From the NCBI RefSeq assembly GCF_001885215.1, contig NZ_CP018091.1, positions 558,001 to 622,000 on the forward strand: a stretch of 64,000 bases of DNA, written 5' to 3'. This stretch comes from Synechococcus sp. SynAce01. GTDB lineage: Bacteria; Cyanobacteriota; Cyanobacteriia; PCC-6307; Cyanobiaceae. Within the stretch, counting starts at the first letter, position 1, and each line of letters starts with the position of its first letter. The notes below the pieces were generated by a model. That model ran no database searches, had not been told where the DNA came from, and saw only the letters and a list, made by a program, of their open reading frames with translations. The position numbers and the translations under genes are program-made. Shown here one piece after another: positions 2,937-13,069 of the stretch.

Positions 2937-4360
2937 GTTTCGACTTCGATGTGATCGTGATCGGGGCCGGCTACGGCGGCTTCGATGCCGCCAAGCACGC
3001 GGCCGATCACGGGCTGCGCACCGCCATCGTCGAATCACGCGACATGGGCGGCACCTGCGTGAACCGAGGCTGTGTGCCCTCCAAGGCCCTGCTGGCCGCC
3101 AGTGGCCGGGTGCGGGAACTGGCCGACGTTGAGCACCTCAGGGGGTTTGGCATCCATGCGGCACCGGTTCGCTTCGAACGCCAGGCAATCGCCGACCACG
3201 CCCACCAGCTTGTGGCCGCGATTCGCGCCAACCTCACCAAAACCCTGGAGCGCTCCGGCACCAAGATCCTGCGCGGCAAGGGTCGGCTCGATGGCGCCCA
3301 GCGGGTGGCGGTGCGCGAGGCCAGCGGCGTCGAGAAGGTTTACAGCGCCAAGGAGGTGATCATCGCCACCGGTTCCGACCCGTTTGTCCCACCCGGCATC
3401 AACACCGACGGCCGCACCGTTTTCACCAGCGATGACGCGATCAACCTGGAGTGGTTACCGCGCTGGATCGCGATCATCGGCAGCGGCTACATCGGCCTGG
3501 AATTCGCCGACGTCTACACCGCCCTGGGCTGTGAGGTCACGATGATCGAGGCCCTCGATCGGGTGATGCCCACCTTCGATCCCGACATCGCCAAGATCGC
3601 GGCCCGGCGGCTGATCGATGGCCGCGAGATCGACACCCGTGCCGGCCTGTTGGCCCGCAAGGTGGAGCCGGGTTCACCGGTGCGCATCGAGTTGGCGGAC
3701 ATGGCCAGCAAGGAGCTCGTGGAGGTGCTGGAGGTCGACGCGGTGCTGGTTGCCACCGGCCGGGTGCCGATCAGCAAAGATCTCAACCTGGCCAGCGTGG
3801 GGGTGCAAACCCAGCGCGGCTTCATCCCGGTCGACGACGCCATGCGCGTGCTGGCCAACGGCGAGCCGGTGGCCCACCTCTGGGCCGTGGGCGATGTGAC
3901 CGGGAAGATGATGCTCGCCCACACCGCCGCTGCCCAGGGCTCTGTGGCGGTGGAGAACATCCTTGGCCACAGCCGCCTGATCGATTACCGCTCCATCCCC
4001 GCCGCCACCTTCACCCATCCGGAGATCAGCTCGGTGGGCCTCAGTGAAAGCGACGCCAGGGCGCTGGCCACCAGCGAAGGGTTCGAGCTCGGCCTGGTGC
4101 GCAGCTACTTCAAAGCGAACACCAAGGCCCTGGCCGAACTCGACAGTGATGGGCTGATGAAACTGCTGTTCCGCAAGGACAGCGGCGAAGTGCTCGGTGC
4201 CCACATCTACGGGCTCCACGCCGCCGACTTGATCCAGGAGATCGCCAACGCCGTGGCCCGCCGCCAGGGGGTGCGCGAACTCGCCAGCGAAGTTCACACC
4301 CATCCCACCCTCAGTGAACTGGTGGAGGTGGCCTACAAGCAGGCCGCCGCCCAGCTCTAA
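2933..4360 (+). CDS. lpdA: Dihydrolipoyl dehydrogenase (E3)
   Basis: This flavoprotein reoxidises dihydrolipoamide in 2-oxoacid dehydrogenase complexes, and possibly in glycine cleavage, producing NADH. The 475-residue product has the FAD-binding motif GAGYGGFDAA near residue 11, the redox disulfide in GGTCVNRGCVPSK (Cys42 and Cys47), the NAD-binding motif GSGYIGLEFA near 185, and the C-terminal catalytic pair in HTHPTLSELVE near 455. The GTG start overlaps the methylase stop codon by two bases (GTGA), which implies translational coupling. The glutathione and mercuric reductase relatives are less likely given the E3-type C-terminus. Confidence 0.95.
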   Translation: MSFDFDVIVIGAGYGGFDAAKHAADHGLRTAIVESRDMGGTCVNRGCVPSKALLAASGRVRELADVEHLRGFGIHAAPVRFERQAIADHAHQLVAAIRANLTKTLERSGTKILRGKGRLDGAQRVAVREASGVEKVYSAKEVIIATGSDPFVPPGINTDGRTVFTSDDAINLEWLPRWIAIIGSGYIGLEFADVYTALGCEVTMIEALDRVMPTFDPDIAKIAARRLIDGREIDTRAGLLARKVEPGSPVRIELADMASKELVEVLEVDAVLVATGRVPISKDLNLASVGVQTQRGFIPVDDAMRVLANGEPVAHLWAVGDVTGKMMLAHTAAAQGSVAVENILGHSRLIDYRSIPAATFTHPEISSVGLSESDARALATSEGFELGLVRSYFKANTKALAELDSDGLMKLLFRKDSGEVLGAHIYGLHAADLIQEIANAVARRQGVRELASEVHTHPTLSELVEVAYKQAAAQL

Positions 4361-4411
4361 GAACCAGAGCAACCCATCGATTCCTACGATCAGTACCCTT
4401 GCCACCGGCCT

Positions 4412-5296
4412 TTGGAGATTCGCCGCCGTCCCCCCAATCCACCGGTGAAGGTGGCCCACCTTCAGTACGGCATCCCCCACAGCGAAGCCGAACCCCGTCA
4501 CATCCTCGAAAAGATTGTGTGGGCGAAGGATCGTGAGATCACCGCCGATAAAGAGCGCGTCAGCCTGCTGCAACTGAGGCAGCAAGTGGAGGCTCTGCCG
4601 CCCACCCGGGATTTCGTGTCGGCCCTGCGGGCCAGTTGCCGCAAGCCGGCCGTGATCGCCGAGATCAAAAAGGCCAGCCCGAGCCAGGGGGTGATCCGGG
4701 AGGATTTCGATCCGGTGGCGATCGCCTCGGGCTATGTGGCCGGTGGGGCCAGCTGCCTGTCGGTGCTCACCGACAAGACCTTTTTCCAGGGAGGGTTTGA
4801 GGTGCTGGTGGCGGTGCGGCAGGTGGTGGAGCTGCCCCTGCTCTGCAAAGACTTCATCCTCTCCCCCTATCAGCTGTATCAGGCACGGGCTGCCGGCGCT
4901 GATGCGGCCCTGCTGATCGCCGCGATCCTCAGCGACCAGGATATCACCTACCTGCTCAGGGCCGCCCGCAGCCTCGATCTGGCCGTGCTGGTCGAGGTGC
5001 ATGACGAGCTGGAACTCGAACGGGTGCTGGGCCTAGATGGGGTGGAGTTGATCGGGATCAACAACCGCGATCTCACCACATTCACCACGGATCTGGCCAC
5101 CACCGACAGCCTGATGGCCCGCTTTGGCGAGCGCCTGCGCCAGAAGGGAGCCCTGCTGGTGAGCGAATCAGGCCTGCACAGCCGTGGGGATCTCGACCGC
5201 GTTGTGGAGGCCGGTGCCGATGCGGTTCTTGTCGGCGAGGCCCTGATGCGGCAAGCCGATGTGACGGCGGCCCTGGAGCAATTGATCAGCGGTTGA
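4412..5296 (+). CDS. trpC: Indole-3-glycerol phosphate synthase
   Basis: TrpC closes the ring of 1-(o-carboxyphenylamino)-1-deoxyribulose 5-phosphate, the fourth step of tryptophan synthesis. The 294-residue TIM barrel shows [10 protein letters not shown] (catalytic lysine), [34 protein letters not shown] and LVSESGL. The start is a TTG at 4412, giving [10 protein letters not shown]. This N-terminal extension, rich in proline and arginine, is typical of cyanobacterial TrpC. The gene stands alone here, away from other trp genes, which is usual in cyanobacteria. Confidence 0.96.
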
Positions 5297-5369
5297 GGGC
5301 TGCTCCCTCCGGGAATTTTTCTGTTGGATCCGGTGATATGGACGTGGAAACCCCATCAGGCCAAGGGTC

Positions 5370-6323
5370 ATGAACAAAATTGCCCTGGAGGAACACTTCA
5401 GTGCCCCGGGTCTTGAGCCCTCCATCAAGGATGTGGCGTTCTTCGATCCCGACATTCTTGGCGCCATTGAGGCTGCCTTGCCTGATCTATCAGAACAGCG
5501 CCTCCAAGCCATGGATCGCGCTGGGATCTCCATGGCCGTCCTTTCCCAGACGGCGCCTGGTGTGCAATCCATCAAGGATGCGACCCTTGCGGTGGAGCTT
5601 GCCCGTCGCGCCAATGATTTTCTGCATGTGCGCACGGCGTTCGCTCCTGAACGGTTTCGCGGTTTCGCTTGTCTTGCTCTGCAGGATGTTGACGCTGCCT
5701 GTGATGAACTCAAACGTTGCGTTTCAGAGCTCGGTTTCGTGGGGGCCTTGGTGAATGGTTCCACCGGTGGTGCCTACCTGGATGAACCCCAATTCGCTCC
5801 TTTTTGGCACACGCTCGAACAGCTTGATGTGCCGCTTTATTTGCATCCTGGGTTGGTCAGCGGAGAGTCTCAGGCCTTCAACGGTCATCCTGAGCTGGAG
5901 GGCGCCGTCTGGAGCTGGACCTGTGACACCGCCACCCACGTCCTGCGGCTGGTGTTCTCCAGGGTGTTTGACCGCCATCCTCAGGCCTCGGTGATCCTTG
6001 GCCATATGGGTGAAACCCTGCCTTACATGCTCTGGCGGCTGGACAGCCGTGCCGACGTGACAACTATCGGTCGGACGTTGAGTCGATCTCCGTCAGAGAC
6101 GCTGAAGAGCCATGTGATGGTGACCACATAGGGAGTGTGTGCGGATGCCCCCCTCCGGTGTGCCCTGGAGACAATGGGCGATCAGGCGGTGATGTTTTCC
6201 ACCGATTACCCGTATGAAGACATTCAGCTTGCTGCCGATTGGATCGAGAACGCCGCCATCCGCGAAGACCAGCGGATCAAGGTCTGCTCCACCAATGCCC
6301 AGCGCGTCCTGCGCCTCGGGTAA
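5370..6323 (+). pseudogene. Gamma-resorcylate decarboxylase-like amidohydrolase, interrupted by in-frame TAG
   Basis: The product resembles amidohydrolase-2 family metal-dependent decarboxylases (gamma-resorcylate or 2,3-dihydroxybenzoate type). It begins MNKIALEEHFS, carrying the E-x-H metal ligands, and has LYLHPGLVS and LGHMGETLPY. The frame stops at TAG 6129-6131 right after MVTT, but continues in the same frame as GVCADAPLRCALETMG, then MFSTDYPYED, to 6323. Relatives have ITTSGVC at this point, so TAG most simply replaces a serine TCG. The metal-binding aspartate of FSTDYPYE lies after the stop, so the 253-residue fragment should be inactive. The full frame would give 317 residues, a normal length. 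A sequencing error or readthrough is the alternative. Confidence 0.85.
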
Positions 6324-6452: not shown

Positions 6453-7061
6453 TCAGACCTTGCGGCTGTAGAACTCCACCACCAGCAATTCGTTGATTTC
6501 CAGGGCCACCCATTCCCGCTCGATCCGGGCATTCACCTTGGCGGAGAGCTTGGTCTTGTCGAGCTCCAAATTGGGGGGAATGTTGGCCAGACCGGGGAAT
6601 TCCAGGTTGCCTTCAGCGAGTTGGCGGCTGGCCTTGCGATCGCGAACCACGATCAGGTCGCCGGGGCGGCACTGGTAGCTGGGGATGTCAACCACACGAC
6701 CATTCACAGTCACGTGACCATGGTTGACCAGTTGGCGAGCACCGGGAACCGTGGGCCCGAAACCGAGGCGGAAGCAGATGTTGTCGAGGCGATTCTCAAG
6801 CAGTTTGAGCAGGTTGGTTCCTGTGGAGCCGTCCTGGGCGCGCGCTTTCTTCACGTAGCGCACGAGCTGGCGCTCGGAGATGCCGTAGTTGAAGCGAAGC
6901 TTTTGCTTTTCTTCGAGGCGGATGGCGTATTCGGAGCGCTTGCGACGGGCTTGGCCGTGCTGACCGGGGGGATAAGCCCGCTTGGCGGACTTACGGGTGA
7001 GACCGGGAAGGTCTCCCAAGCGCCGCGTCACCCTCAGGCGAGGACCGCGGTAGCGAGACAT
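6453..7061 (-). CDS. rpsD: 30S ribosomal protein S4
   Basis: S4 binds 16S rRNA early in small-subunit assembly. The 202-residue product starts [11 protein letters not shown], the conserved cyanobacterial and plastid S4 N-terminus. The S4 RNA-binding domain lies around residues 90-150, with [20 protein letters not shown]. It ends in VVEFYSRKV, as expected for the family. The gene stands alone, away from the main ribosomal protein cluster, and has its own strong terminator. Its start abuts the divergent yidD region. Confidence 0.98.
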
Positions 7062-11556: not shown

Positions 11557-11973
11557 TTGGGTCAGCTCGGACTGAACAGCAGGCTATGGATTGATCAGGA
11601 ACCAGAGCAAGTTGAAGCGAGAATCACACAGATCAACGATCCAATCCAGGTTGAAGCCCTCAGGCAATTGGCTCGCGAGGGTTACTGCCTGCTCAAGTCC
11701 AGTATTCCCCATTCAGCTATCGATGCCTATCTTGCTATCATCCATTCAGACAACCAACCCTTCCCACTTAAAGCCAGTTTAGGGCGTGACATCTTTTCCT
11801 TCGCCAGCCTTGATCCAAACCAGCCCCTCGTCAAGATTCTCGATAGTCATTTTGCTTTTGCAGAAGCTCGGGCCCTAGGCCTGGCCGCACCAATCAGGAG
11901 CCTGCTCGCGCTGATCTTCAAGGAAGCACCAGTCACCTTTCAAACCCTGTATTTCCAAGTGGTTTCCCTCTAA
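11557..11973 (+). pseudogene. Truncated PhyH-like (phytanoyl-CoA dioxygenase family) gene remnant
   Basis: The 138-residue frame (TTG start) resembles the N-terminal part of Fe(II)/2-oxoglutarate oxygenases of the PhyH family. It has QLAREGYCLLKSSIP followed by a helical region and FQTLYFQV. In the family that strand leads into a glycine/serine segment and the metal-binding H-x-D. Here it ends in VSL and a stop, so the iron ligands are absent. About 800 bases of AT-rich DNA without a continuation follow. I infer a truncated, non-functional gene acquired by transfer. Similarity to PhyH is weak and rests on pattern only. Confidence 0.5.
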
Positions 11974-12798
11974 CATGGCTAAAGTTTTTTCCAAAATAAA
12001 CAATAACACGAGCTTCTTCGAATTGCTCATACCAATCTAAAATGAATTCGATAGCTTATTGAGTGCTCAAATTGCTCGCTACCGATGATGTACTACTCAC
12101 CCCCGCCAAAATTTTTGATCTCGCGATTCAACCCTGCATGGACATAGGCTCCTGGCTTGCCTGCCAAGCCCTAAACGGTATCGTGATTACCATAAATAAA
12201 GTGCCCGTCTTCAGGTATGCCGCACTCTGGATACAGCCAACAGATTTTTTTTAGCGCTTCTTTGTCGAATTCAAAATAGCGCCGAAGGGTTGTAATACTG
12301 TTTTATGCGTTCCAAGACAGAAAAACAGTTTCCGCTATTTCTTGCGAAAGCGCAATCTGTTCTGGTCACTATGTCCTGTCCATCAATAGACTGTAGGTTG
12401 TCATCTTCCCCACTAGTCTCTTTGCCTGCTGCCCAGAGGGTGGGACAGAATAGTTGTGTAGTGTACCAGCTTTCAGTTGGCCAAAAAGAGGCATTTAACA
12501 GGGCCTGAATCAGGGAAGATCCACGCCACTTGCAACTGTCTGGACCATTGGCTGAATCAATTGGCTGGATTCAATAGTCAACAGCCAAGACCCCTGACAG
12601 CTTCTCCCAAGGCCATCTACATTGCCACTGAGAGCAAAGCCGTTGCCAAAAACAACTCAGGCCAGGGAGACCCGAGCGAATCGGGTCTTAGTGAGCACGG
12701 ATCAACGGTTCGAGCACGTTCAAACGATCTAGATGCAGACAAGACAACACCTTCAGTCAGGTCCGTGAACTAGGCGCTCAAGTGGGATCCGGCCTGGC
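11974..12798. other. AT-rich intergenic island with decayed coding remnants
   Basis: There is no intact gene here. GC in sampled 60-base rows is about 33-40%, against roughly 60-65% around it. The plus-strand frame at 12063-12254 (63 codons) looks like a shadow. Better candidates are on the minus strand: an open frame at 12570-12271 (99 codons) ending ERIKQYYNPSALF, and an overlapping frame at 12302-12171 with RRYFEFDKEALKKICWLY and IPEDGHFIYGNHD, then a stop and 25 more open codons. They look like one gene broken by a frameshift and stops. A hairpin with an 8-bp stem (12668-12688) has no T tract. Confidence 0.55.
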
Positions 12799-13021: not shown

Positions 13022-13069
13022 TTCGTTACCCGGTGTCGGGGTTCGTTACCGGGAGTCTGTTTTCGTTAC
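13022..13069. repeat. Three TTCGTTAC direct repeats at exact 20-bp spacing
   Basis: The octamer TTCGTTAC (GTAACGAA on minus) occurs at 13022, 13042 and 13062, exactly 20 bases apart. The DNA between the copies is partly conserved (CGGTGTCGGGG against CGGGAGTCTGT). The array spans the ycf46 stop codon and the start of the gap before the small membrane gene. It could be a degenerate tandem duplication or a set of protein-binding sites on one helical face. Confidence 0.85.

Follow-up and report, generated by a model that had tools for sequence, protein, structure and literature searches.

The locus described here raises the question of whether an amidohydrolase gene that is cut by a single in-frame stop codon has recently been lost, still yields a working enzyme, or is interrupted only in the assembled sequence. 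The window, that is, the whole stretch of 64,000 nucleotides of Synechococcus sp. SynAce01 that was analysed, contains on its forward strand a frame that opens with ATG 5370 and, upon translation, runs for 253 codons to a TAG at 6129–6131. Past this codon the same frame continues for 63 sense codons (6132–6320) and closes with TAA 6321–6323. The sequence-only reading, which had noticed both the interruption and the continuation, gave the latter as 64 codons; the continuation is confirmed, but the 64th codon is the final stop. Its description of an amidohydrolase frame that stops at the TAG and then goes on matching the family is borne out by the translation and by Pfam. The answer that we favour as likely is that the amidohydrolase gene is dispensable and that the stop marks a recent nonsense allele with loss of function.

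The Pfam matches establish that the two pieces belong together. Residues 44–226 of the N-terminal piece alone correspond to positions 24–204 of the 289-position PF04909 profile (E 3.5e-25), the tail alone corresponds to positions 225–289 (E 2.8e-08), and the pieces joined, with X at the stop, cover positions 24–289 (E 6.3e-37); the gathering score of PF04909 is exceeded by each piece separately. Since the pieces are successive stretches of one model, they represent a single gene with one stop and not a chance continuation, and two unrelated genes are ruled out by the same positions. On a codon-usage score trained on the long open reading frames (ORFs) of the window, the tail reaches 0.20 and the N-terminal piece 0.12. 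A listing of same-frame neighbours in which each part has 50 codons or more and scores above 0.1 gives five pairs in the window. Among the other four, TGA 47567 and TGA 43468 each divide genes of different Pfam families, TAA 4358 is the boundary between the presumed lpd and trpC genes, and TAG 54474 is followed by a part that matches TrkA_N and Ion_trans_2 and preceded by a part without a Pfam match at E ≤ 0.01. The site at 6129 is thus the only clear case of one gene split in two. The assignment to the decarboxylase-like amidohydrolases likewise stands, resting on the match to PF04909 and on gamma-resorcylate decarboxylases as the best matches of solved structure (PDB 2dvt and 3s4t/4qro; phmmer E 1.4e-78 and 3.9e-75, query residues 2–316 with X at the stop). 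The intact relative L016 matched no NCBIfam model at E ≤ 0.1. The intact relatives probably decarboxylate a substrate of the ortho-hydroxybenzoate type.

Features of the interrupted gene and its surroundings (positions in the window)
Feature	Position	Strand	Basis
trpC (indole-3-glycerol-phosphate synthase; name assumed), upstream neighbour, also in the six closest relatives	4412..5296	+	ORFs, relatives' loci
AGG where the six closest relatives have their start codon	5358..5360	+	alignment
PF04909 amidohydrolase, o-hydroxybenzoate-decarboxylase-like, N-terminal 253 codons to TAG	5370..6131	+	translation, Pfam
In-frame TAG at a serine invariant in 20 of 20 relatives, TTSG motif	6129..6131	+	translation, alignment
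63 sense codons and TAA: remainder of the domain, catalytic aspartate, C-terminal helices	6132..6323	+	Pfam, homology with the L016 model
Asp279 codon, aligned with Asp287 of gamma-resorcylate decarboxylase, past the stop	6204..6206	+	alignment
rpsD (ribosomal protein S4; name assumed), downstream neighbour, also in the six closest relatives	6453..7061	-	ORFs, relatives' loci

Comparison with relatives indicates what the TAG replaced. In a survey of 400 genomes of the family, the window's own included, evenly drawn from a larger group, 15 contained a match at E ≤ 1e-30; the match in the own genome has one TAG inside it, and the other 14 have none. A pattern-based scan of named genomes yielded ten loci, four of them duplicates (L016–L019 are the same contigs as L004, L003, L007 and L002, and each was counted once), and hence six further relatives; neither a weaker second homologue in L024 nor a weak hit in L025 entered the count. 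All 20 distinct relatives, 14 of them from the same family, have an open frame with serine at the stop site, as the sequence-only reading had claimed. Not one of them ends at the position of the TAG, so the reading also survives the test that had been set for its refutation, and a stop conserved across relatives can be discarded. The six closest relatives are 80–83% identical. The closest named relatives are strains of Synechococcus and Cyanobium. The orthologues of Synechococcus sp. CS-1329, Synechococcus sp. ATX 2A4, Cyanobium sp. Morenito 9A2 and Synechococcus sp. Tobar12-5m-g encode a protein 80–82% identical at the same locus; in these four the frame is open throughout, with serine at the site, whereas the window has TAG.

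The proposed route, a single change from TCG to TAG, fared less well. At this site the six closest relatives use TCC (three), TCT (two) and TCA (one), and the remaining family members TCC (L008), TCA (five) and AGC or AGT (two). Outside the family the six relatives have TCG (four), TCC (one) and AGC (one). TCG is therefore found in four of the 20 relatives, all outside the cyanobacteria, and in none of the 14 within the family, and at least two changes separate TAG from any serine codon sampled there. Either there was a TCG intermediate that the sample does not include, or two changes took place. A silent TCG intermediate is plausible because TCG is common in the long ORFs of the window (178 TCG and 232 TCC among the serine codons). 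Independently of this, L024 (Methylobacterium sp. J-030) carries tandem homologous amidohydrolase genes at 3424–4419 and 5001–5879.

The same codon counts bear on the main rival to a recent nonsense allele, namely a single-base error of sequencing or assembly in a gene that is intact in the organism. Such an error would account for one deviating codon within an otherwise constrained gene and for a TAG that occurs in no relative of the collections searched, a single strain of the species having been sampled. However, a one-base slip at a serine codon would have to start from TCG, which is absent from this site in all 14 family relatives, and the source genome, a single contig of 2,750,634 bases (2.75 Mb) with 99.85% completeness, suggests a finished assembly. 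We consider an error unlikely and infer that the base is real.

The surroundings of the gene point to a resident but expendable function. The neighbours are presumably lpd, trpC (indole-3-glycerol-phosphate synthase) and rpsD (ribosomal protein S4), and the order lpd–trpC–gene–rpsD is found in the window and in all six of the closest relatives, which implies that the gene was inherited at a fixed locus. A genome-wide search with the protein gave one match at E ≤ 0.001, that is, a single detected copy; a second copy was thus not found at this threshold. In the same-genus genome G001 (99% complete) the gene has no match anywhere; a gap of 101 bases separates the matches to trpC and rpsD, and no remnant of the gene was detected in it. 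Its absence there could be old rather than a loss. Taken together with the presence of a homologue in just 14 of the 399 other family genomes at E ≤ 1e-30, it indicates that the gene is dispensable. The spacing at the locus is not uniform: in G100 (L076, 5420–6560) about 1.1 kb separate rpsD from the amidohydrolase gene, as against roughly 100–150 bases elsewhere.

If the stop is a nonsense mutation, its age is limited by the state of the rest of the gene. The claim that there is no other decay nearly holds, in that the alignment with the relatives revealed neither a frameshift nor a second stop; the reservation concerns the 5′ end. At the position where five of the six closest relatives start with ATG and one with TTG, the window now has AGG, and its first in-frame ATG, at 5370, lies four codons downstream of the relatives' start. 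(This comparison covers all six closest relatives; a separate alignment covers four of them.) Four of the 20 relatives, judged by their nearest possible start codon, also begin near the place of ATG 5370, and the AGG change is accordingly not clearly damage.

Selection was assessed with a codon model on the window and the six closest of the 20 relatives (315 codons, start-codon and TAG columns removed), using one fixed tree; the nucleotide and protein trees partly disagree, and the nucleotide bootstraps of the inner groups used range from 57 to 84. For the whole gene, omega on the window's own branch is 0.112 against 0.099 for the background (2dlnL 0.21). In a profile of own-branch omega, 0.07 and 0.15 lie within the 3.84 bound, and 0.05 and 0.20 lie outside it. 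Before the stop the values are 0.127 versus 0.101. After the stop they are 0.061 versus 0.081, although 63 codons give little power and 0.30 is still within the bound (2dlnL 2.76). Pairwise values agree with this. Before the stop, the window and its six closest relatives differ by a mean pN of 0.121 and pS of 0.604, the relatives among themselves by 0.115 and 0.575; after the stop the corresponding figures are 0.078 and 0.553, and 0.083 and 0.544. If one counts the changes private to a sequence, at sites where the other six agree, the window has 7 among 199 such sites, and the relatives, treated likewise one by one, have 3–14 of 195–206. No relaxation of selection was thus detected on the own branch (pN/pS is like that of the relatives), and an own-branch omega close to the background means that constraint lasted until recently. 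If constraint ceased gene-wide when the stop arose, the unconstrained share would be no more than roughly the final ninth of the branch, as calculated from the 0.20 bound. That neither relaxed constraint nor a frameshift or second stop was detected limits the age of the stop, and a recent loss remains compatible with all of these values.

The same lack of decay is, however, equally expected under readthrough, the other option that had been offered beside recency. Recency agrees with omega and with pN/pS; readthrough was left without positive evidence. Its leaky form, in which the stop is tolerated while a little full-length enzyme is made, as Belinky et al. 2021 (PMC7918605) propose in general terms, we regard as quite improbable here. 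The homologous tail of 63 codons is indeed intact and looks as constrained as in the relatives, but recency accounts for this constraint equally well, the tail test is weak in power, and none of the 20 relatives has the stop. Belinky et al. describe in-frame stops within bacterial genes that have a dN/dS below 1 and suggest that many such genes are not pseudogenes. The present gene has in common with their cases a single in-frame stop in a sequence otherwise under apparent purifying selection. It differs in that their account focuses on stops common to orthologues of at least two species, and the present stop is found in no relative. The case is compatible with the short-lived class that they mention.

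Decoding of the codon in this genome likewise argues against readthrough. Covariance searches with RF00005 (E ≤ 0.001) gave 44 tRNAs, to each of which ARAGORN assigns a sense anticodon, with CUA in none of the 44 predictions, and release factor 1 is present, the prfA model scoring above its cut-off. A reassigned genetic code or a suppressor tRNA is without support on both counts. The window has 49 ORFs that reach 200 codons and overlap little, some of which are not genes; 8 of them, this one included, end in TAG, as do 3 of the 31 whose codon-usage score exceeds 0.15. UAG therefore looks like a normal stop in this genome. It is very unlikely, though tempting to speculate, that low-level UAG readthrough keeps some full-length enzyme under selection and that the site serves this species as a natural expression brake.

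What termination at the TAG would cost the protein can be gauged from the active site. The metal ligands of gamma-resorcylate decarboxylase are reported as Glu8, His10, His164 and Asp287, the last being both metal ligand and proton donor, and calculations on the Mn enzyme give proton transfer from Asp287 as rate-limiting (PMC8187880, PMC7894528, as far as these sources are drawn on here). All four ligands of that enzyme are encoded in the window, as Glu7, His9, His159 and Asp279. Unlike in gamma-resorcylate (2,6-dihydroxybenzoate) decarboxylase, the aspartate codon is here preceded by a stop: the first three ligands lie before it and Asp279 after it, so that the set is complete in the DNA and incomplete in the 253-residue product. 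The sequence-only reading had rightly placed the essential aspartate past the stop. When the structure of L016, an intact relative, is modelled (mean pLDDT 83.7, pTM 0.87, from an alignment of only 12 sequences), the position of the stop, 258, comes just after the strand 253–256. It is followed by a helix (263–273), a short fragmentary strand (278–281), the aspartate (283) and two helices (289–298 and 303–318); DSSP shows the expected last strand in fragments only (EE-E at 278–281).

In the mechanism that we propose, the only detected copy of the gene, at its fixed locus, would have been hit by a recent nonsense mutation, and TAG 6129 is most likely where translation stops. The resulting product of 253 residues would be missing the end of the barrel together with the C-terminal helices, as well as the aspartate that binds the metal and donates the proton; it should therefore be inactive, and it is probably unstable as well. 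One could imagine instead that the gene now yields two polypeptides, with translation restarting at GTG 6135 for the second, and that these assemble into a working barrel. An in-frame GTG does occur one codon past the stop. Yet it is already the valine codon of the GVCAD motif in the close relatives and so did not arise as a start; moreover, the break falls inside the barrel domain of the L016 model, and the gene is split in none of the 20 relatives. We find this arrangement scarcely credible.

On the favoured reading of a recent nonsense allele, annotation should flag this gene as interrupted, and the strain should not be assigned a decarboxylase activity on the strength of it. It appears to be an accessory gene at the start of loss, one that is absent from the locus in the same-genus G001. 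This is an ordinary kind of event in bacteria, with little importance beyond annotation. Should readthrough prove true, the gene would be of use as a natural system for testing how leaky stop codons are in cyanobacteria. A limited literature search found no article on nonsense pseudogenes in picocyanobacteria; we do not assert on this basis that the case is new to the literature.

Two further observations concern the wider region. Within the window, a 138-aa ORF at 11557 and more short ORFs, together spanning 11557–12280, precede the gene at 13046; a Pfam search at E ≤ 0.01 matched neither the ORF at 11557–11970 nor that at 12063–12251, and this is possibly a decayed gene region. The genome G002 (80% complete), in which trpC was not found, has a contig bearing rpsD with unlike sequence at the position expected for the gene. 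On this contig (L075, G002:C3, 1–2180) rpsD is 87% identical to that of the window, and the neighbours further on, presumably murE, aqpZ and an aminotransferase gene, are 93–96% identical to the window's. Identity leaps from 68% to 95% inside a glutaredoxin-like gene, and the rpsD end of this contig is likely the result of a mis-joined contig or of recombination.
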